Assembly: GCA_021781815.1 (NCBI GenBank)
Contig: JAJXWB010000004.1
Coordinates: 124,001-188,000, forward strand
Direction: 5' to 3'
Source of the DNA: Pseudomonadota bacterium
GTDB taxonomy: Bacteria; Pseudomonadota; Alphaproteobacteria; Rhizobiales; Beijerinckiaceae
Length of the DNA stretch: 64,000 nt
Both the position numbers and the translations under genes were made by a program. Numbering within the stretch: position 1 is the first letter of the stretch; each line of letters starts with the position of its first letter. Under the pieces are notes generated by a model. That model saw only the letters and a list, made by a program, of their open reading frames with translations. It made no database searches and had not been told where the DNA came from. Below are positions 54,312 to 61,767 of the stretch, one piece after another.

Positions 54312-54376
54312 GGTCTAGCCTTCATATATGCTGTTTTTTGACGCATAAGTGATGGCTCAGACATGAAATCTGCCTT

Positions 54377-54643
54377 ATGATCACTGCCGCCCAGCTTCGC
54401 GCCGCTCGCGCGCTCGCGGGCCTGGACCAGCGGCGGCTGGCCGAATTGTCCGGCCTGTCCTTGCCGACCATCCAGCGCATGGAGGCCAGCGACGGCGTCA
54501 TTCGCGGCAATGTCGATTCGCTTACCAAACTTGTGCGCGCGCTCGACGAGGCGGGGATCGAACTGATCGACGAGGGCGCAGCCAGCCAGGGGGTCGGCCG
54601 CGGCGTGCGATTGCGGCGGCGTCCGGCGTCGGTGGCGGGCTGA
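54377..54643 (+). CDS. Small XRE-family DNA-binding regulator
   Basis: The 88-residue protein has a helix-turn-helix (QRRLAELSGLSLPTIQRME, about residues 18-36) and a short C-terminal strand region that ends basic. Such small regulators are common in Rhizobiales. It lies four bases before hyfB and 66 bases after a strong palindrome, so it probably represses itself and the hyf operon. Its inducer is unknown. Confidence 0.9.
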   Translation: MITAAQLRAARALAGLDQRRLAELSGLSLPTIQRMEASDGVIRGNVDSLTKLVRALDEAGIELIDEGAASQGVGRGVRLRRRPASVAG

Positions 54644-54647
54644 CGTC

Positions 54648-56660
54648 ATGCCGCTTGCGCTCGCACTCTGGTATGTCGCCGGTTTGCTGGTCCTCAGCGT
54701 CGCTGCGATCGCCATGCGCGGACTGCCGAGGGCCAGCGCGATCGTCTATGCTGCATGCGGCGCGATCGCATTCGCGCTGCTGTTCGGAGCGGCGCAGCGC
54801 CTGATCGCTTTTCCCGACGCCACCGCACGGCTGACGCTGCCGTTGGGTCTGCCCTGGATCGGCGCGCGTTTCAGGCTCGACGCGCTGTCGTGCTTCTTCC
54901 TCGTCGTGATCAATCTCGGCGCTGTCGGAGCCTGCCTCTATGCGATCGGCTATGGCGCGCACGAGAAGGAGCCAGGCCGCATCCTGCCATTCTTCCCGGC
55001 CTTCGTCGCCGGCATGAATTGCGTTGTCGTGGCCGACGACGCCTTCACCTTTCTCGTCTCCTGGGAGTTCATGTCGCTGGCGTCCTGGGCGCTCGTGCTC
55101 GCGCATCATGACGAAGCGGAGAACCGGCGGGCGGGATTCGTCTACATCGTCATGGCGAGCCTGGGCGCGACCGCATTGCTGCTCGCCTTCGGCCTGCTCG
55201 CCGGTCCATCCGGCGGATATGATTTTGCGACGATCGCTGCGACGCCGCGGCCCGAATGGCTCGCGGGACTGGTCGTCGTCCTTGCGCTCGTCGGCGCGGG
55301 GTCGAAAGCCGGGCTGGCGCCGTTGCACGTCTGGCTGCCGTTGGCGCATCCGGCGGCGCCGAGCCACGTTTCGGCGCTGATGAGCGGCGCGATGACCAAG
55401 GTCGCCGTCTACGGCTTCATCCGGATCGTTTTCGATCTGGTCGGGCCGGTCCAGCTTTGGTGGAGCGTCGTCATGATGCTGCTGGGCGCGGGCTCGGCGG
55501 TTCTCGGCGTCATGTTTGCGGCGATCGAACGCGATCTGAAACGTCTGCTCGCCTACAGCACGATTGAAAACATCGGCGTCGTGTTCACGGGACTCGGACT
55601 GGCGATGGCGTTCAAGGCGAACAACATCGAATGGGCTGCGGCGCTCGCCTTCTCCGCCGCCCTGCTGCACGTGCTCAATCATTCCCTGTTCAAGAGTCTG
55701 TTGTTCTTCGGCGCCGGCGCGGTGCTGGGCGCAACGGGCCTTCGCGACATCGAGAAACTCGGTGGCCTGATCCATCGCATGCCCCGATCGAGCTTCGCCA
55801 TGCTCGGCGCCGCCATGGCGATTTCGGCCTTGCCGCCGCTCAACGGCTTCGTTTCGGAATGGCTGCTGTTTCAAGCCGTCCTTGTCAGCCCAGCCTTGCC
55901 GCAATGGGGCTTGAAACTGATGACGCCGGCGGTCGGCGCGGCGCTCGCGCTGGCTGCGGCGCTCGGCGCCGCCGCCTTCGTGCGGATGTTCGGCATTGTC
56001 TATCTCGGCCGACCGCGGTCGCCGGCGGCGATCAAGGCGACGGAGACAGACCCCTGGTCGCTTGCCGCCATGTTTCTCGTCCTGGCCCTGTGCCTGTCGC
56101 TGGGTGTCGCGCCGGGCCTCGTGCTCGATGCGATCGCGCCGGTCGCCCATGCGCTGATTGGCGCGCGCCTGCCCGAACAGTCGACGATGGCCTGGCTGAC
56201 GGTCGCCCCGATCGCGGAGGCGCGGAGTTCCTACAATGGGCTGCTCGTCTTCGCCTTCATCGCGATATCGACTCTGACGGCCATCGAGGTCATCCACCGC
56301 TTTGGTTCGCGCGCCATTCGTCGCGCATCGGCCTGGGACTGCGGTTTTCCCAACGACGATCCGGCGACGCAATATACGGCGTCGAGCTTTGCCCAGCCGA
56401 TCCGCCGCGTGTTCGGCAACATCGTCTTTTCGGCGCGCGAGAACGTCGACATGCCCGCCCCCGGCGATTCGCGTGCGGCGCATCTGACTGTCGAAACCAC
56501 CGACAGGATCTGGTCCTGGATCTATGAGCCCCTCACAGGCGCGATCAATCGGATCGCCACCTCGATCAATCGTCTGCAATTCCTGACGATCCGGGGCTAT
56601 CTCAGCCTCGTGTTCGCTGCGCTGGTCGCTCTCCTGCTAACGGTGGCGACATGGCGCTGA
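54648..56660 (+). CDS. hyfB: HyfB-like proton-pumping antiporter subunit
   Basis: The 670-residue membrane protein belongs to the Mrp/NuoL antiporter family, with about 16 helices and family regions FLVSWEFMSLASWALV, KAGLAPLHVWLPLAHPAAP, and lysines within the helices. It forms the membrane arm of a complex I-like or hydrogenase-4-like assembly. The start lies four bases after the XRE stop, and its end overlaps hyfC by ten bases. Confidence 0.92.
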   Translation: MPLALALWYVAGLLVLSVAAIAMRGLPRASAIVYAACGAIAFALLFGAAQRLIAFPDATARLTLPLGLPWIGARFRLDALSCFFLVVINLGAVGACLYAIGYGAHEKEPGRILPFFPAFVAGMNCVVVADDAFTFLVSWEFMSLASWALVLAHHDEAENRRAGFVYIVMASLGATALLLAFGLLAGPSGGYDFATIAATPRPEWLAGLVVVLALVGAGSKAGLAPLHVWLPLAHPAAPSHVSALMSGAMTKVAVYGFIRIVFDLVGPVQLWWSVVMMLLGAGSAVLGVMFAAIERDLKRLLAYSTIENIGVVFTGLGLAMAFKANNIEWAAALAFSAALLHVLNHSLFKSLLFFGAGAVLGATGLRDIEKLGGLIHRMPRSSFAMLGAAMAISALPPLNGFVSEWLLFQAVLVSPALPQWGLKLMTPAVGAALALAAALGAAAFVRMFGIVYLGRPRSPAAIKATETDPWSLAAMFLVLALCLSLGVAPGLVLDAIAPVAHALIGARLPEQSTMAWLTVAPIAEARSSYNGLLVFAFIAISTLTAIEVIHRFGSRAIRRASAWDCGFPNDDPATQYTASSFAQPIRRVFGNIVFSARENVDMPAPGDSRAAHLTVETTDRIWSWIYEPLTGAINRIATSINRLQFLTIRGYLSLVFAALVALLLTVATWR

Positions 56661-57604
56661 TGCTCGATCTCGCGGCGCAGGGAGCGCAGATGTCGTTGGT
56701 TCTGGCGCTTGCGCCCGGCCTGCTCGGTCTTACGCGGAAGATCAAGGCGCGGTTGCTGCGGCGAAGAGGCCCGCCCATCGTCCAGCCCTACCGCGACCTT
56801 GCCAAGCTCCTGCGCAAGGAAGCGGTCGTCGCCGAGAACGCCTCGTGGCTGTTCCGCAGCGCGCCCTACATGATCTTTGTCGCGACCTGGGTCGCCGCCT
56901 CCCTGATTCCGACCTTCGCGACCGGTCTTATCTTCAGTTGGACCGCCGATCTTATCGCGATCACCGCTCTTCTGGGCAGCGCGCGGTTCTTCCTCGCCCT
57001 CGTCGGCATGGATGTCGGCACGAGCTTCGGCGGCATTGGATCGAGCCGCGAAGCCATGTTCGCGACGCTGGCCGAGCCGGCGATGATCATGATCTCGTTC
57101 ACCGTCGCACTCATCGCCGGATCGACGCAATTGTCCTCGGTCGCCGAGCATATGCTCTCGCATCTCGAATTGCGTGTTTCGCTCGGGCTGGCGCTGTTTG
57201 GACTCATCATCGTGGCGCTGGCCGAGAATGCGCGCATTCCCGTCGACAATCCGGCGACCCACCTTGAACTGACGATGGTGCACGAGGCGATGATCCTGGA
57301 ATATTCCGGCCGCCATCTCGCCGTCATAGAAATGGCCGCAGCTCTCAAGCTGCTTCTCTATGTTTCGCTCGCCGCCTGCATTTTCGCTCCCTGGGGGCTG
57401 GCCCCGCCCGGCGCGGGGCCGCTGTTCTGGGCGATCGGCGTCGTCGCCTATCTCTTCAAACTGCTCGCTGGCGGGTGCATGCTGGCCGTGTTCGAGACAT
57501 CGATCGCCAAGATGCGCGTATTCCGCGTTCCAGAACTGCTCGGCGCGGCGCTGATGCTCGGCTTCCTCGGCGTACTGCTTCTGTTCGTGTCGCGGAGTCT
57601 GTGA
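56651..57604 (+). CDS. hyfC: HyfC-like NuoH-type membrane subunit
   Basis: The 317-residue protein has eight helices and the NuoH/HyfC signature PVDNPATHLELTMVHEAM and the QPYRDLAKLLRKE loop, which contacts the soluble arm. It links electron transfer to proton movement. It overlaps hyfB by ten bases and hyfE by one. Confidence 0.93.
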   Translation: MALMLDLAAQGAQMSLVLALAPGLLGLTRKIKARLLRRRGPPIVQPYRDLAKLLRKEAVVAENASWLFRSAPYMIFVATWVAASLIPTFATGLIFSWTADLIAITALLGSARFFLALVGMDVGTSFGGIGSSREAMFATLAEPAMIMISFTVALIAGSTQLSSVAEHMLSHLELRVSLGLALFGLIIVALAENARIPVDNPATHLELTMVHEAMILEYSGRHLAVIEMAAALKLLLYVSLAACIFAPWGLAPPGAGPLFWAIGVVAYLFKLLAGGCMLAVFETSIAKMRVFRVPELLGAALMLGFLGVLLLFVSRSL

Positions 57605-58266
57605 TGGGGCGCCTTGCCTTTGATCTCGCCCATCTGCTGGCCGGCAGCCTCGTGCTTCTCAGCTTGCTGATGCTCTATCAGGACCGGATGTTCTCGCTCA
57701 TCCGCATCTTCGCATTCCATGCGATCGTCCTGTCGATGTCGGTGGCGTGGCAAGCCTTTACACAAGGCGCCCCCCATCTCTACATCACAGCCGCGATCGC
57801 GCTGCTGTTCAAGGCGTTCATCATCCCGGTCAGCCTGCATCGCATCGTCGTGCGGCTCGAAGTCCATCGCGAGATCGAGGTCGTCGGCGGGGTCGGAATC
57901 ACCATGCTCATCGGCATCGGGCTGATTGCGCTGTCGTTGGCGGTCATGCTGCCGGCGACCGCAAGCGCCGATCCGCTCGCGCGCGAAGATCTGGCGTTCG
58001 CGCTCTCGGTCGTTCTGCTCGGTCTTCTGATGATGGTCACGCGCCGTAACGCCGTGACTCAGATCATTGGCTTCATGTCGCTCGAAAACGGGCTGATCCT
58101 CGCGGCCGCCGGCGCCAAGGGCATGCCGCTGGTGGTCGAGATCAGCGTCGCGTTTTCCGTGCTGATCGCCTTCATCGTCATCGGTGTCTTCCTGTTCCGG
58201 ATCCGCGAACGGTTCGATTCGGTCGACGTCGGCGTTCTCGAGTTCAGCCGGGGAGAGCGTCAATGA
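57604..58266 (+). CDS. hyfE: HyfE-like NuoK-type membrane subunit
   Basis: The 220-residue protein has six helices and contains the NuoK-like glutamate helix GFMSLENGLILA. HyfE is the usual NuoK-like part of hydrogenase-4-type complexes. The ATG at 57604 shares the A of the hyfC stop; the frame is open further upstream inside hyfC but without family similarity. The stop overlaps hyfF (ATGA). Confidence 0.91.
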   Translation: MGRLAFDLAHLLAGSLVLLSLLMLYQDRMFSLIRIFAFHAIVLSMSVAWQAFTQGAPHLYITAAIALLFKAFIIPVSLHRIVVRLEVHREIEVVGGVGITMLIGIGLIALSLAVMLPATASADPLAREDLAFALSVVLLGLLMMVTRRNAVTQIIGFMSLENGLILAAAGAKGMPLVVEISVAFSVLIAFIVIGVFLFRIRERFDSVDVGVLEFSRGERQ

Positions 58267-59711
58267 TCATATCGCCGCATCAGGCGATCGCCGCCGTCCT
58301 CGAAATCCCTGCGGCGTCGGCGATTGGACTGTCCTTGCTGCCCGGCTATGTTTGGCCGGCCCGCATCAACGTTCTGTCCTGCGCGGCGACGTTTCTCTGC
58401 GCGACCACGCTGCTGTTCGGCGGCGGGCATATCGAGCATTATCTGTTCGTCGACGATCTGAATGTCGTTTTCATTGTCCTGTCGACCTTCGTCGGCCTCA
58501 CCACCAGCGCCTATAGCGCGAGCTACCTGCGGCACGAGATCGAGGAAGGCAAGCTGAAGCCAGCTTACGTCCGTTTCTATCACGCCATGTATCAGGCGCT
58601 GATGTTTGCGATGAACCTTGCTCTGCTTTCCGACAACATCGGACTGATGTGGGTCGCGATCGAACTGGCGACGCTGACGACCGTGCTCATGGTCGGCGTC
58701 TACCGCACGAACGCGGCGCTGGAGGCGGCCTGGAAATATTTCATTCTCGGCAGCGTCGGCATCGCGCTCGCGCTGTTTGGCACCATTCTCGTCTATCTCT
58801 CGGCGCAGCCGGTTTTGGGCGAGGGGCCGAACGCCATGGTCTGGACCATCCTCGTCCAGCACGCTGTTCAATTCAGCCCCGGCTTGCTCAACGTCGCTTT
58901 CGTCTTCCTCATCCTCGGCTATGGCACCAAGGTCGGCCTCGCGCCGATGCACGCCTGGCTGCCGGACGCCCACGCCGAGGGCCCGACGCCCATTTCCGCA
59001 GTGCTGTCGGGGCTGCTGCTCAACGTGGCGCTATACGCCGTGCTGCGTTTCAAGATGCTGCTCGCCGCCAATGCGGGCGCGATCCGGCCGGGACCGCTGC
59101 TGGCGACGCTTGGACTCGTTTCGCTCCTGTTCGCCGGGTTCATGCTGTATCGCCGCAACGACATCAAACGGCTGTTCGCCTATTCCTCGATCGAGCACAT
59201 GGGCATCGTCGCCTTCGCCTTCGGCATGGGCGGGCCGCTCGCCAATTTCGCCGGTCTGCTGCACATGACGATGCACAGCCTCACCAAATCGGCGATCTTT
59301 TTCGCCGTCGGCCATGTCGCTCAGGCGAGAGGAACGCAGAAGATTTCCGAAATCCGGGGACTCACGGCGTCACATCCGGTTCTTGGCTGGGGATTGATCG
59401 CGGGCGTCGTGGCGATCGCAGGTCTGCCGCCGTTCGGCGTATTCATGAGCGAATTCCTGATCGTCAGTTCGACCTTCGCGCGTGAGCCGCTGCTCGCCAT
59501 CCCCCTTGTCGTCGGGCTTCTCGTCGCGTTCGGCGCCTTGATTCTGCGCGTCAGCAATTTAGCCTTCGGCGAGCCGGTTGGCCCGCAGCGGGCGGTCTCG
59601 GCGTCCATCGCGCCGCTCTACGCGCATCTTGCGCTGGTTCTCGTCGCCGGCGTCTACCTGCCCTCGCAGCTCGTCGCCTGGTTCCGGGCCGTCGCGGAAA
59701 TGCTGGGCTGA
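58263..59711 (+). CDS. hyfF: HyfF-like antiporter subunit
   Basis: The 482-residue membrane protein is a second antiporter-type subunit, with AWKYFILGSVGIALA, KVGLAPMHAWLPDAHAEGPTPI and FAYSSIEHMGIV. Proton translocation is expected. It overlaps hyfE by four bases and precedes the large soluble subunit. Two antiporter-like subunits per cluster are normal for the Hyf/Ehr type. Confidence 0.93.
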   Translation: MIISPHQAIAAVLEIPAASAIGLSLLPGYVWPARINVLSCAATFLCATTLLFGGGHIEHYLFVDDLNVVFIVLSTFVGLTTSAYSASYLRHEIEEGKLKPAYVRFYHAMYQALMFAMNLALLSDNIGLMWVAIELATLTTVLMVGVYRTNAALEAAWKYFILGSVGIALALFGTILVYLSAQPVLGEGPNAMVWTILVQHAVQFSPGLLNVAFVFLILGYGTKVGLAPMHAWLPDAHAEGPTPISAVLSGLLLNVALYAVLRFKMLLAANAGAIRPGPLLATLGLVSLLFAGFMLYRRNDIKRLFAYSSIEHMGIVAFAFGMGGPLANFAGLLHMTMHSLTKSAIFFAVGHVAQARGTQKISEIRGLTASHPVLGWGLIAGVVAIAGLPPFGVFMSEFLIVSSTFAREPLLAIPLVVGLLVAFGALILRVSNLAFGEPVGPQRAVSASIAPLYAHLALVLVAGVYLPSQLVAWFRAVAEMLG

Positions 59712-59724
59712 GGGAGCGGATCGG

Positions 59725-61239
59725 ATGGCCTCTCTTCGGGAAGCGATCGCCAGGGGCGCAAGGCTTGACGCGATGCGCCCCTTTCCGCGCATCGAGGTCG
59801 ACGCATCGATCTGGCTGCGCGTCACGCGCGAGATCAGCAAGGGCGAGGGTGATCTCGTCGCCCTGTGGAGTGACGGCGCCGCGGCGCACATGATGGCGTG
59901 GCCGCATGGCGACGCTACGCCCTGTGTGCTTTCGATCGCCTGCCTGGAAGCGCGCTTTCCCTCGGTCGGCCATCTGCATCCGCCTGCCCAAAGGCTCGAG
60001 CGGGCGATCCACGACATTTACGGCCTGACGCCCAGCGGCGCCGCCGACGATCGTCCCTGGCTCGATCACGGCGTCTGGGGCGTGCTCCACCCCGGCGGCA
60101 ACGCGCAGCCTGCTCCCGCGGACCCCGCGCCCTACCGGTTTCTCGCGGCGGAAGGCGAACCGCTGCATCAGATCGCGGTCGGTCCGATTCATGCCGGCAT
60201 CATCGAGCCGGGCCATTTCCGGTTTTCAGCGAACGGCGAGACGGTCGTCCGCCTCGAACAGCGGTTCGGCTACGCCCACAAGGGCGTCGAAACGCTGATG
60301 CGCGGCGCGGACGTTGATCGCGCGCTCCGGCTGGCCGGCCGCGTCTCCGGCGACAGCACGGTCGCCTATGCATGGGCGGCCTCTGGCGCGCTGGAGGCGG
60401 CGCTGGACATCGTTCCGCCGCCGCGCGCGACCGCGCTGCGCGCCGTCATGGCGGAGATCGAACGCATCGCCAACCATCTCGGCGACATCGGCGCGGTCTG
60501 CAACGATGCCGCCTTCAGCCTGATGCTGGCGCATTGCGGCGTGTTGCGCGAGCGCGTGCTGCGCGCCGCGAAAGCGGCGTTCGGCCATCGCCTCATGATG
60601 GATTGCCTCGCGCCCGGCGGGCTCGCTCGGGATATGACGCCGGGTGGCGCGCGCGCGATCGAGGACGCGTTGCTGGCGATCGACGCCAGTCTGCCGGGGC
60701 TGCTGCGCGTTTACGATTCGACGGCCTCCCTGCAGGATCGAACGGTTGGAACCGGAAAGACGGACGCTGCGCTCGTGGCGCAGTTTGCGTGCGGCGGCTT
60801 CGTCGGGCGCGCGGCGGGCCGCGGGTTCGACGCGCGACGTGCGCTGCGCTATGCGCCCTACGGCGACCTCGATTTCGACGTGCCTGTCCGACAGGAAGGC
60901 GACGTCGACGCGCGTGTGCGCCTGCGGTTCGACGAGATCGGCCAGTCCATGGCGATCGTGCGCCGCCTGCTCGTGAAATTGCCCGCCGGACCCATCCGCG
61001 CCGAATGGCCCACAGATGCGGGCGCTTGCGAAGGCGTGGCCATGATCGAGGGGTTCCGGGGCGATATTGTCGCGTGCGTGCGCCTGGACGCCGCTGGACG
61101 CATCGCGCACTGCCACCTGCGCGATCCCTCGTGGTTTCAATGGCCGCTGCTGGAAGCTGCGATCGAGGGCAATATCGTCGCTGACTTTCCGCTCTGCAAC
61201 AAGTCGTTCAACTGCGCCTATTCGGGCCACGATCTCTGA
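59725..61239 (+). CDS. hyfG: HyfG-like large subunit without the nickel ligands (Ehr type)
   Basis: The 504-residue protein has a NuoC-like N-terminal part and a NuoD/hydrogenase-large-like part (about 150-504) with GYAHKGVETL and IERIANHLGDIG. At the first NiFe motif, R-x-C-G-x-C, it reads R206-V-S-G-D-S, and at the second, D-P-C-x-x-C, it reads D467-P-S-W-F-Q. All four nickel cysteines are thus absent, so it cannot carry a NiFe site. Such proteins form energy-converting hydrogenase-related (Ehr) complexes. Start ATG 59725 follows AGGGAGCGG. Confidence 0.9.
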   Translation: MASLREAIARGARLDAMRPFPRIEVDASIWLRVTREISKGEGDLVALWSDGAAAHMMAWPHGDATPCVLSIACLEARFPSVGHLHPPAQRLERAIHDIYGLTPSGAADDRPWLDHGVWGVLHPGGNAQPAPADPAPYRFLAAEGEPLHQIAVGPIHAGIIEPGHFRFSANGETVVRLEQRFGYAHKGVETLMRGADVDRALRLAGRVSGDSTVAYAWAASGALEAALDIVPPPRATALRAVMAEIERIANHLGDIGAVCNDAAFSLMLAHCGVLRERVLRAAKAAFGHRLMMDCLAPGGLARDMTPGGARAIEDALLAIDASLPGLLRVYDSTASLQDRTVGTGKTDAALVAQFACGGFVGRAAGRGFDARRALRYAPYGDLDFDVPVRQEGDVDARVRLRFDEIGQSMAIVRRLLVKLPAGPIRAEWPTDAGACEGVAMIEGFRGDIVACVRLDAAGRIAHCHLRDPSWFQWPLLEAAIEGNIVADFPLCNKSFNCAYSGHDL

Positions 61240-61254
61240 GAAGCGACGCCAGCC

Positions 61255-61767
61255 ATGCGCAATCTGATCCTCCAGGGTATACTGCAATCGCCGCTGTCCG
61301 AGCCGCCGCCCCGGCCGGACGATTGCGAACTTGCGCAGCTCACGCATGCGTTCGAGGAGGCGTCACAACGCAGGCTCGGACGCTCGCTGTCCATTCGCGC
61401 GGTGGACGCCGGCTCGTGCAACGGTTGCGAACTCGAGATGCACGCGCTCGGCAACGCCTATTATGATCTCGAACGCTTCGGTCTGCGCTTCGTCGCCTCG
61501 CCGCGCCATGCCGACGTGCTGATGGTGACGGGGCCAGTCACGAAGAACATGCGTTTGGCGCTCGAACGCGCCCATACCGCCATGCCCTCGCCGAAATGGG
61601 TGATCGCCGTTGGCGATTGCGCATGTGATGGCGGCGTTTTCGCCGGCGGGTACGCCTGCGTCGGCGCGGTGTCGCACGTCGTTCCCGTCGACCTTCGACT
61701 TCCGGGCTGCCCGCCCGAACCGATCGTGCTGCTCAAGGGGTTGATCGCCTTGATCGAAGCGGACTGA
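61255..61767 (+). CDS. hyfI: HyfI-like small subunit with one 4Fe-4S cluster
   Basis: The 170-residue NuoB/HyfI-like protein keeps the four ligands of the proximal cluster: Cys55 and Cys58 (SCNGCE), Cys122 (GDCACDGG) and Cys152 (PGCPPEP). It docks on HyfG and the membrane arm. The operon ends here. hyfA, hyfD and hyfH are not in the run, so the electron-input module is unknown. Confidence 0.92.
   Translation: MRNLILQGILQSPLSEPPPRPDDCELAQLTHAFEEASQRRLGRSLSIRAVDAGSCNGCELEMHALGNAYYDLERFGLRFVASPRHADVLMVTGPVTKNMRLALERAHTAMPSPKWVIAVGDCACDGGVFAGGYACVGAVSHVVPVDLRLPGCPPEPIVLLKGLIALIEAD

Follow-up and report, generated by a model that had tools for sequence, protein, structure and literature searches.

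A nickel-free Ehr complex encoded behind an XRE regulator that precedes a SulP-family transporter in related genomes

The stretch of DNA analysed here, called the window below, is 64,000 nucleotides of forward strand (positions 124,001 to 188,000 of contig JAJXWB010000004.1, assembly GCA_021781815.1) from a bacterium of the family Beijerinckiaceae. It carries six open genes, hyfB-C-E-F-G-I, which lie on the + strand between 54648 and 61767, overlap or are closely spaced, and show no frame breaks. Together they encode what is almost certainly a complete six-subunit, nickel-free complex, HyfBCEFGI, of the energy-converting hydrogenase-related (Ehr) kind. Directly ahead of hyfB stands a gene for an 88-residue helix-turn-helix regulator of the XRE type (54377-54643, + strand; Pfam HTH_31/HTH_3). 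Nickel-free complexes of the Ehr kind are already known; what is new is the link to this regulator, to its candidate operator and to a SulP-family transporter found behind the same regulator in related genomes.

All six subunits are encoded on the + strand. Two of the membrane subunits are antiporter-like, HyfB (54648-56660, 670 residues), which matches NF005086 (hydrogenase 4 subunit B) at 841.7 bits for a cut-off of 667, and HyfF (58263-59711, 482 residues), which matches NF005043 (hydrogenase 4 subunit F) at 837.8 bits for a cut-off of 533. HyfC (56651-57604, 317 residues) is NuoH-like (PF00146, 6e-38) and HyfE (57604-58266, 220 residues) is a small membrane subunit matching NF008556 at 81.9 bits, under the cut-off of 136, with a weak Oxidored_q2 match. 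The large subunit HyfG (59725-61239, 504 residues; PF00346, 2.9e-38) is of the fused 30 kDa/49 kDa type and has no nickel ligands; its start was taken from relatives, a longer TTG-started frame being also present. The small subunit HyfI (61255-61767, 170 residues; PF01058, 3.6e-33) holds one intact 4Fe-4S site.

An earlier note, made from the sequence alone, had described the membrane subunits as intact, and indeed the alignments of HyfB, HyfC, HyfE and HyfF to their E. coli Hyf counterparts run the length of the proteins, with identities of 241/658, 96/308, 57/213 and 170/469 respectively. Its view that HyfI keeps the 4Fe-4S ligands was likewise borne out by the motifs CNGC, GDCACDGG and PGCPP, which in the alignment coincide with the cluster-binding cysteines of HyfI and HycG from E. 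coli. Given the intact antiporter-like subunits, it is plausible that the complex would pump protons, as the same note had proposed. It had also listed HyfA, HyfH and formate dehydrogenase as missing from the operon; none of these, nor HyfD or HyfJ, lies in or beside it, and the gene-neighbour maps of relatives' loci, built from codon-scored frames, show no HyfA, HyfD, HyfH or HyfJ. The window operon has no NuoI-like or NADH-oxidising subunit either. Elsewhere, the window genome holds two full-length [NiFe] large subunits (contigs C54 and C6), hypD and a separate nuoD, so that real hydrogenases exist beside the Ehr complex. A weaker third [NiFe] large-subunit match and hyp genes are seen in this genome as well.

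At none of the four nickel-ligand positions of HyfG is a cysteine in place. Alignment with E. coli HyfG/HycE puts the N-terminal former ligands in Ser208-Gly-Asp210-Ser211 (60346-60357, + strand), where RVCGIC of the E. coli proteins reads RVSGDS, with Ser208 at 60346 and Ser211 at 60355. The C-terminal pair belongs to a remodelled motif, CNKSFNCAYSGHDL (61195-61236, + strand), in which Asn492 and Lys493 are Ehr-only; within its part SFNCAYSGHDL (61204-61236), NCAYSG aligns with DPCYSC and the former ligands are now Ala498 (61216) and Gly501 (61225). The earlier note was therefore right that the nickel cysteines are absent, and two of the residues it gave in their stead (Ser, Asp, Ser and Gln) were wrong, the actual ones being Ser208, Ser211, Ala498 and Gly501. 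The C-terminal ligand motif had been misplaced at 61123, since the DPSWFQ found there aligns with AATYAN of HycE, a separate conserved segment, and the true motif lies at 61204-61236. Window HyfG stops at the mature end of a hydrogenase and hence has no cleavable C-terminal tail.

From at least 585 relatives the best 80 were taken and, with the HyfG of the window, make up a sample of 81 sequences. In this sample residue 208 is Ser in 80 sequences (Cys in one), 211 is Ser in 79 (Ala in two), 498 is Ser in 80, with Ala in the window alone, and 501 is Gly in all 81; the relatives from Cupriavidus, Paraburkholderia, Rhodococcus and Allomeiothermus have no nickel cysteines either. A misread frame hiding cysteines, which the earlier note had allowed for, finds no place here, as the frame and the residues in question are shared by the relatives. 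Furthermore, 128 of the 504 HyfG columns are identical in at least 80 of the 81 sequences, and the last 36 residues (469-504) reach a mean column identity of 0.97, the top of 14 blocks. A tree of 23 rows, with long branches flagged, was built from 18 Ehr rows, three Hyf/Hyc, another group-4 hydrogenase and NuoD, none of them published as Ehr. The 18 Ehr rows form one clade (support 100/99) apart from the others, so that HyfG does not group with active hydrogenases, the second outcome the note had wanted checked. Thirteen positions, among them Asn492, Lys493 and Gly501 of the former active site, carry one residue throughout the 18 Ehr rows and never that residue in the five comparison rows. Since the former nickel pocket is the most conserved block and carries Ehr-only residues, it has been rebuilt and has not decayed. 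The Ehr-type identity first suggested in the note thus holds for a complete, conserved and nickel-free complex, with small and membrane subunits as in Ehr.

Two further candidates regarding the pocket were set aside. Cys491 and Cys497, kept in 79 and 80 of the 81 sequences, are found only in the proteobacterial main group, and a zinc site formed by them as a family essential was rejected because both are missing in the Cupriavidus, Paraburkholderia, Rhodococcus and Allomeiothermus relatives. The geometry of the pocket was not taken from the predicted structure of HyfG, whose mean predicted local distance difference test score is 78.8 but falls below 50 for residues 136-184 and for residues 482-504 of the pocket; hence only the overall fold of the model was used. 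By this fold, as by sequence (4.4e-47), the best solved relative is E. coli HycE (7z0s_E), with complex I next.

Of 98 loci examined, seven were untestable; in 69 of the other 91 the XRE gene immediately precedes hyfB and is read in the same direction. It was found in the loci of 63 of the best 80 relatives, with a median identity to the window of 73%, on par with HyfF, the value for HyfG being 58%. Its distribution was examined in 239 genomes of the window's order, the own genome counted, in which HyfG at E 1e-60 or better was taken as an Ehr call and is present in 26 genomes; in the 153 genomes of the window's class, again with the own genome counted, it is present in 16. XRE matches in the 239 genomes fall into two groups, 47 genomes at 90 bits or more and the remainder at 58 bits or less, and an XRE orthologue occurs in 21/26 Ehr genomes versus 26/213 others (Fisher p 6e-13). 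The surroundings of XRE were fetched for all 26 Ehr-less XRE genomes and for five further copies. In 25 of the 26, a gene for a SulP-family transporter of about 570 residues lies directly behind XRE on the same strand, while the 26th (G080) shows SulP fragments behind it; in G092 a second XRE copy is again followed by SulP. The XRE-linked SulP combines PF00916 with a STAS domain, its nearest solved structure being 6ki1. The XRE tree is poorly resolved, and the Ehr and SulP labels require five changes on it. In nine Bradyrhizobium loci (L009, L015, L029, L032, L033, L037, L046, L072 and L078) a second XRE, on the opposite strand, immediately precedes the methyltransferase-like gene that follows hyfI.

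A candidate XRE operator, TGATGGCTCAGACATGA (54350-54366, + strand), lies 10 nt before the XRE start and has two mismatches of 12 to TGATGT-N5-ACATCA. It is the sole site with at most two mismatches in the window; sites with two or three mismatches together number 20 versus 12.0 expected, the three-mismatch matches being near chance. With the same limit of two mismatches, the operator is found in 40 of 69 Ehr-linked XRE stretches and in 24 of 26 SulP-linked ones, for 0.75 and 0.25 expected from shuffles, respectively. Among the controls, it occurs before none of 40 SulP genes without XRE, at two of 21 Ehr operons that lack an immediately preceding XRE and in 0.41% of 1220 random stretches. The candidate operator goes with XRE, regardless of the target behind it, and with high confidence one XRE/operator module is shared by the Ehr and the SulP versions.

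Ehr and SulP avoid each other in related genomes. A SulP orthologue, taken at 350 bits or more, is present in 97 of the 239 genomes, namely in two of 26 with Ehr (G027 and G238) versus 95 of 213 without (p 1.9e-4), and a stricter cut of 480 bits leaves two of 26 versus 74 of 213 (p 0.004). In a family-stratified test of the ten Ehr-containing families (72 genomes), the avoidance holds at p 1.1e-4. By family, SulP is found in 0/3 Ehr genomes versus 4/4 Ehr-less ones in f11, in 0/4 versus 3/4 in f36 and in 1/2 versus 6/6 in f28, and it is absent altogether from f31. Moreover, in three genomes with Ehr (G229, G121 and G198), the old SulP place still holds XRE and flanks that match those of Ehr-less relatives, and SulP is gone, and in a fourth (G112) the SulP gene at the old place is split over two frames, for which an assembly error is possible. 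Of the 47 XRE genomes, 45 hold exactly one of the two systems; as choosing genomes by XRE forces such a pattern, no p value was used for it. Doubled systems do occur, with two XRE-SulP in G092 and two HyfG in both G294 and G324, so nothing trivial bars a genome from having both Ehr and SulP. The XRE gene, the operator and the SulP alternative, all absent from the earlier note, are the only functional clues found.

The XRE-Ehr locus of the window is flanked by an acyl-CoA ligase-like gene upstream and by an LTXXQ-family gene downstream, on the opposite strand. Among the 98 loci, the order B-C-E-F-G-I is seen in 89 and I-B-C-E-F-G in one (Rhodococcus), the eight others being incomplete, several of them on short contigs. 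The hyfBCEFGI genes are also carried by the laboratory strain Rhizobium johnstonii 3841, on plasmid pRL11 (RL_RS31230 to RL_RS31255). Recurrent neighbours besides XRE are confined to some groups and include a methyltransferase-like gene (12 of 80 loci), an uncharacterised gene (six) and a small membrane protein (five). In three loci of one genus (L087, L088 and L089, from G203, G223 and G180) the Ehr operon lies directly behind a same-strand hyp operon (hypC-D-E and more), despite the lack of a nickel site in Ehr. In two genomes belonging to one genus (L093, 13709-13942; L094, 14110-14343), the end of hyfI is adjoined or overlapped by a gene for a TusA-family sulfurtransferase, and in a Hyphomicrobium genome (L021) a tandem pair of hyfB-like genes stands behind XRE, upstream of hyfC. 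Two possible links at the genome level were dropped: hypD, for hydrogenase maturation, is present in 13/26 Ehr genomes versus 50/213 others (p 0.008), an excess gone within families (p 0.59), and CO dehydrogenase in 6/26 versus 33/213 (p 0.40).

The same switch before two mutually replacing systems suggests one physiological job, and we infer that Ehr and the XRE-linked SulP do the same job. BicA belongs to SulP, and CO2 uptake elsewhere involves complex-I-like machines; the supply of inorganic carbon, as bicarbonate, is therefore in our view the most likely job, and by analogy Ehr might contribute to it by proton-coupled hydration of CO2, a reading which we hold tentatively. Indeed, in the accessible portions of PMC13144422 and PMC6689103, BicA figures as a bicarbonate transporter of the SulP family, the hydration of CO2 by NDH-1MS is coupled to the oxidation of ferredoxin, and DAB2/MpsAB joins a NuoL-like subunit to a function that concerns CO2 or bicarbonate; PMC6981117, as far as its available text goes, describes NDH-1MS as a complex-I relative with a carbonic-anhydrase module. 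In the scheme we envisage, bicarbonate would be supplied to carboxylating enzymes, by import along the SulP route and, along the Ehr route, by hydration of CO2 inside the cell, against its equilibrium. The reaction site would be the former nickel pocket between HyfG and HyfI, probably lined by the Ehr-only Asp210, Asn492, Lys493 and others. Proton movement through HyfC, HyfF and HyfB would make the hydration one-way, driven either by the proton gradient or by electrons that a soluble carrier might deliver via the single HyfI cluster. Taken to its full extent, that Ehr complexes of this group are vectorial carbonic anhydrases which, with the nickel pocket rebuilt for proton-coupled hydration of CO2, provide bicarbonate to mostly heterotrophic soil bacteria and can be exchanged, under one XRE switch, for a SulP bicarbonate importer, the proposal is possible but doubtful.

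Several observations weigh against this carbon reading or the associations beneath it. No XRE was detected upstream of 22 of the 91 testable Ehr operons, including those of Cupriavidus, Paraburkholderia, Rhodococcus and Allomeiothermus. The genomes compared are related, hence the p values are too small, even with family stratification, and the operator motif was picked by eye from part of the sequences later scored. The class-wide repeat goes in the same direction, with SulP in one of 16 Ehr genomes versus 24 of 137 others, and is not significant (p 0.47). G027 and G238 hold both Ehr and SulP, and G080 has a broken SulP and no Ehr. As for the transporter itself, among curated models the XRE-linked SulP scores highest with DauA, a C4-dicarboxylate transporter (455 bits, cut-off 614), ahead of BicA (298 bits, cut-off 880). 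With two beta-type queries, a carbonic anhydrase gene was found near SulP in just two of 68 loci (p ~0.06, a rough estimate) and near Ehr in none of the HyfG-holding loci. A carbonic anhydrase of PF00484 is present in all 26 Ehr genomes (202 of the 239 overall), so that bicarbonate could leak back to CO2. Profile matches of the six Ehr proteins, XRE and the downstream gene include no CupA- or DabA-like family. Cys491 and Cys497, which could hold zinc, are by alignment apparently dispensable for the Ehr family. At one locus (L140, genome G004) the gene next to XRE-SulP on its upstream side encodes a carbonic anhydrase whose N-terminus is signal-like.

Among other explanations, Ehr may be a proton-pumping oxidoreductase, a cut-down complex I passing electrons from ferredoxin or flavodoxin to quinone, with SulP linked merely via the same stress, which we regard as a serious contender and still rather unlikely. 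The fold and subunits resemble those of complex I and formate hydrogenlyase, and HyfI has its one intact 4Fe-4S site. However, the operon lacks a ferredoxin-like HyfH/NuoI subunit, the Tyr of the NuoD motif RLDY, which presumably has a role in quinone binding, corresponds to Gly209 in HyfG, and the loss of SulP in Ehr genomes would be left unexplained. The available part of PMC6349859 assigns ferredoxin:NADP oxidoreductase activity to the related Mbx complex and suggests quinone as acceptor for other Ehr complexes, both of which fit such an oxidoreductase. Homeostasis of pH is an unlikely alternative, in which an anion/bicarbonate exchanger, SulP, and a proton pump, Ehr, would be two routes to the correction of internal pH under one regulator; it agrees with the common regulator and operator, with the mutual avoidance and with the involvement in pH homeostasis described for a formate hydrogenlyase relative in the accessible text of PMC7384014, but the neighbour maps show no acid- or alkali-response gene recurring beside Ehr or SulP. 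Slightly less probable still is a shuffling of cassettes, XRE and its operator being then a mobile regulatory module before unrelated genes, with no function common to Ehr and SulP. That operator and XRE travel together, and that more XRE copies exist elsewhere, for example convergent to the methyltransferase-like gene in Bradyrhizobium, counts in its favour, whereas the avoidance across whole genomes, within families too, and the loss of SulP from its old place in Ehr genomes speak against it.

The remaining possibilities concern partners of the complex or its decay. A formate or other dehydrogenase encoded elsewhere could dock on HyfI, as proposed for Margulisbacteria and Saganbacteria in the portion of PMC6349859 at hand, and a single TIGR01591 match above the cut-off is present in the window genome, on a different contig; with no formate dehydrogenase recurring beside Ehr in the neighbour maps and no HyfA/HyfH bridge subunit, we consider this very unlikely. 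It is harder still to believe in a proton-driven supply of electrons to nitrogenase, with quinol reducing ferredoxin. Indeed, nifH is over the cut-off in 11/26 Ehr genomes versus 25/213 others (p 3e-4), but this enrichment is weak within families (p 0.087) and nifH fails to pass the cut-off in 15 of the 26 Ehr genomes, that of the window among them. Finally, the loss of all four nickel ligands would suit a decaying hydrogenase without function, to which the six open frames, the 128 near-invariant HyfG columns and a pocket that is the most conserved block leave hardly any credence.

The Ehr group was reportedly defined in Marreiros 2013. The locus of the window agrees with it in having a large subunit without the four nickel cysteines, a small subunit with the cluster cysteines, and NuoH-like and antiporter-like membrane subunits. 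Ehr complexes have been reported from several phyla, and the accessible text of PMC4378227, PMC10284858 and PMC10432482 calls their function unknown, hypotheses being given elsewhere in the parts of the literature at our disposal. The published complexes, as far as the available text of the reports goes, share a group-4-like large subunit without CxxC nickel motifs and membrane subunits like NuoH, NuoL and HyfB/HyfE; they differ in that these reports, on Sulfobacillus, comammox Nitrospira, ammonia-oxidising archaea and Margulisbacteria, mention no XRE regulator, operator or SulP in those portions. In the literature covered, with most subscription journals outside its scope, no paper linking Ehr or hydrogenase-4 to SulP or XRE was found, further listings being judged by title or abstract. 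The available part of PMC6901956 describes rv0082-rv0087 of Mycobacterium tuberculosis as a putative [NiFe] hydrogenase or formate hydrogenlyase. Judged by gene names alone this is the same hydrogenase-like set, with a regulator, Rv0081, adjoining it, but according to the same text Rv0081 is a different, DosR-linked regulator. For Ehr itself, an XRE/operator before either Ehr or SulP, together with the loss of SulP, makes the open question of function genetically testable, by CO2/pH phenotype and by cross-complementation.

Compared with E. coli Hyf/Hyc, HyfB, C, E, F, G and I are homologous end to end, whereas the window complex is without the nickel cysteines, HyfA, HyfD, HyfH, HyfJ and the C-terminal tail. 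The operons of E. coli and Azospirillum do carry HyfA, HyfD, HyfH, assembly genes and formate dehydrogenase; in the window, the nickel cysteines, HyfA, HyfD, HyfH, the assembly genes and a nearby formate dehydrogenase that mark hydrogenase-4/formate hydrogenlyase are all lacking. On plasmid AZO_p2 of Azospirillum lipoferum 4B (L121), a group-4 [NiFe] hydrogenase operon includes an aldehyde ferredoxin oxidoreductase and a ubiquitin-like modifier gene. Respiratory complex I (Nuo) has the same fold of large subunit and membrane arm, but the window operon has neither an NADH module nor a NuoI-like subunit, and a separate nuoD is present in the genome. With NDH-1MS (CupA) and DAB/MpsAB the difference is the missing CupA- or DabA-like subunit, and Ehr is not classed as a member of either. 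They serve here as a working model, since in the accessible accounts NuoL-like proton channels are coupled to CO2/bicarbonate and are used, elsewhere, beside SulP-type BicA; if the carbon reading were true, the complex I family would gain one more machine that handles CO2, this one derived from the site of a hydrogenase.

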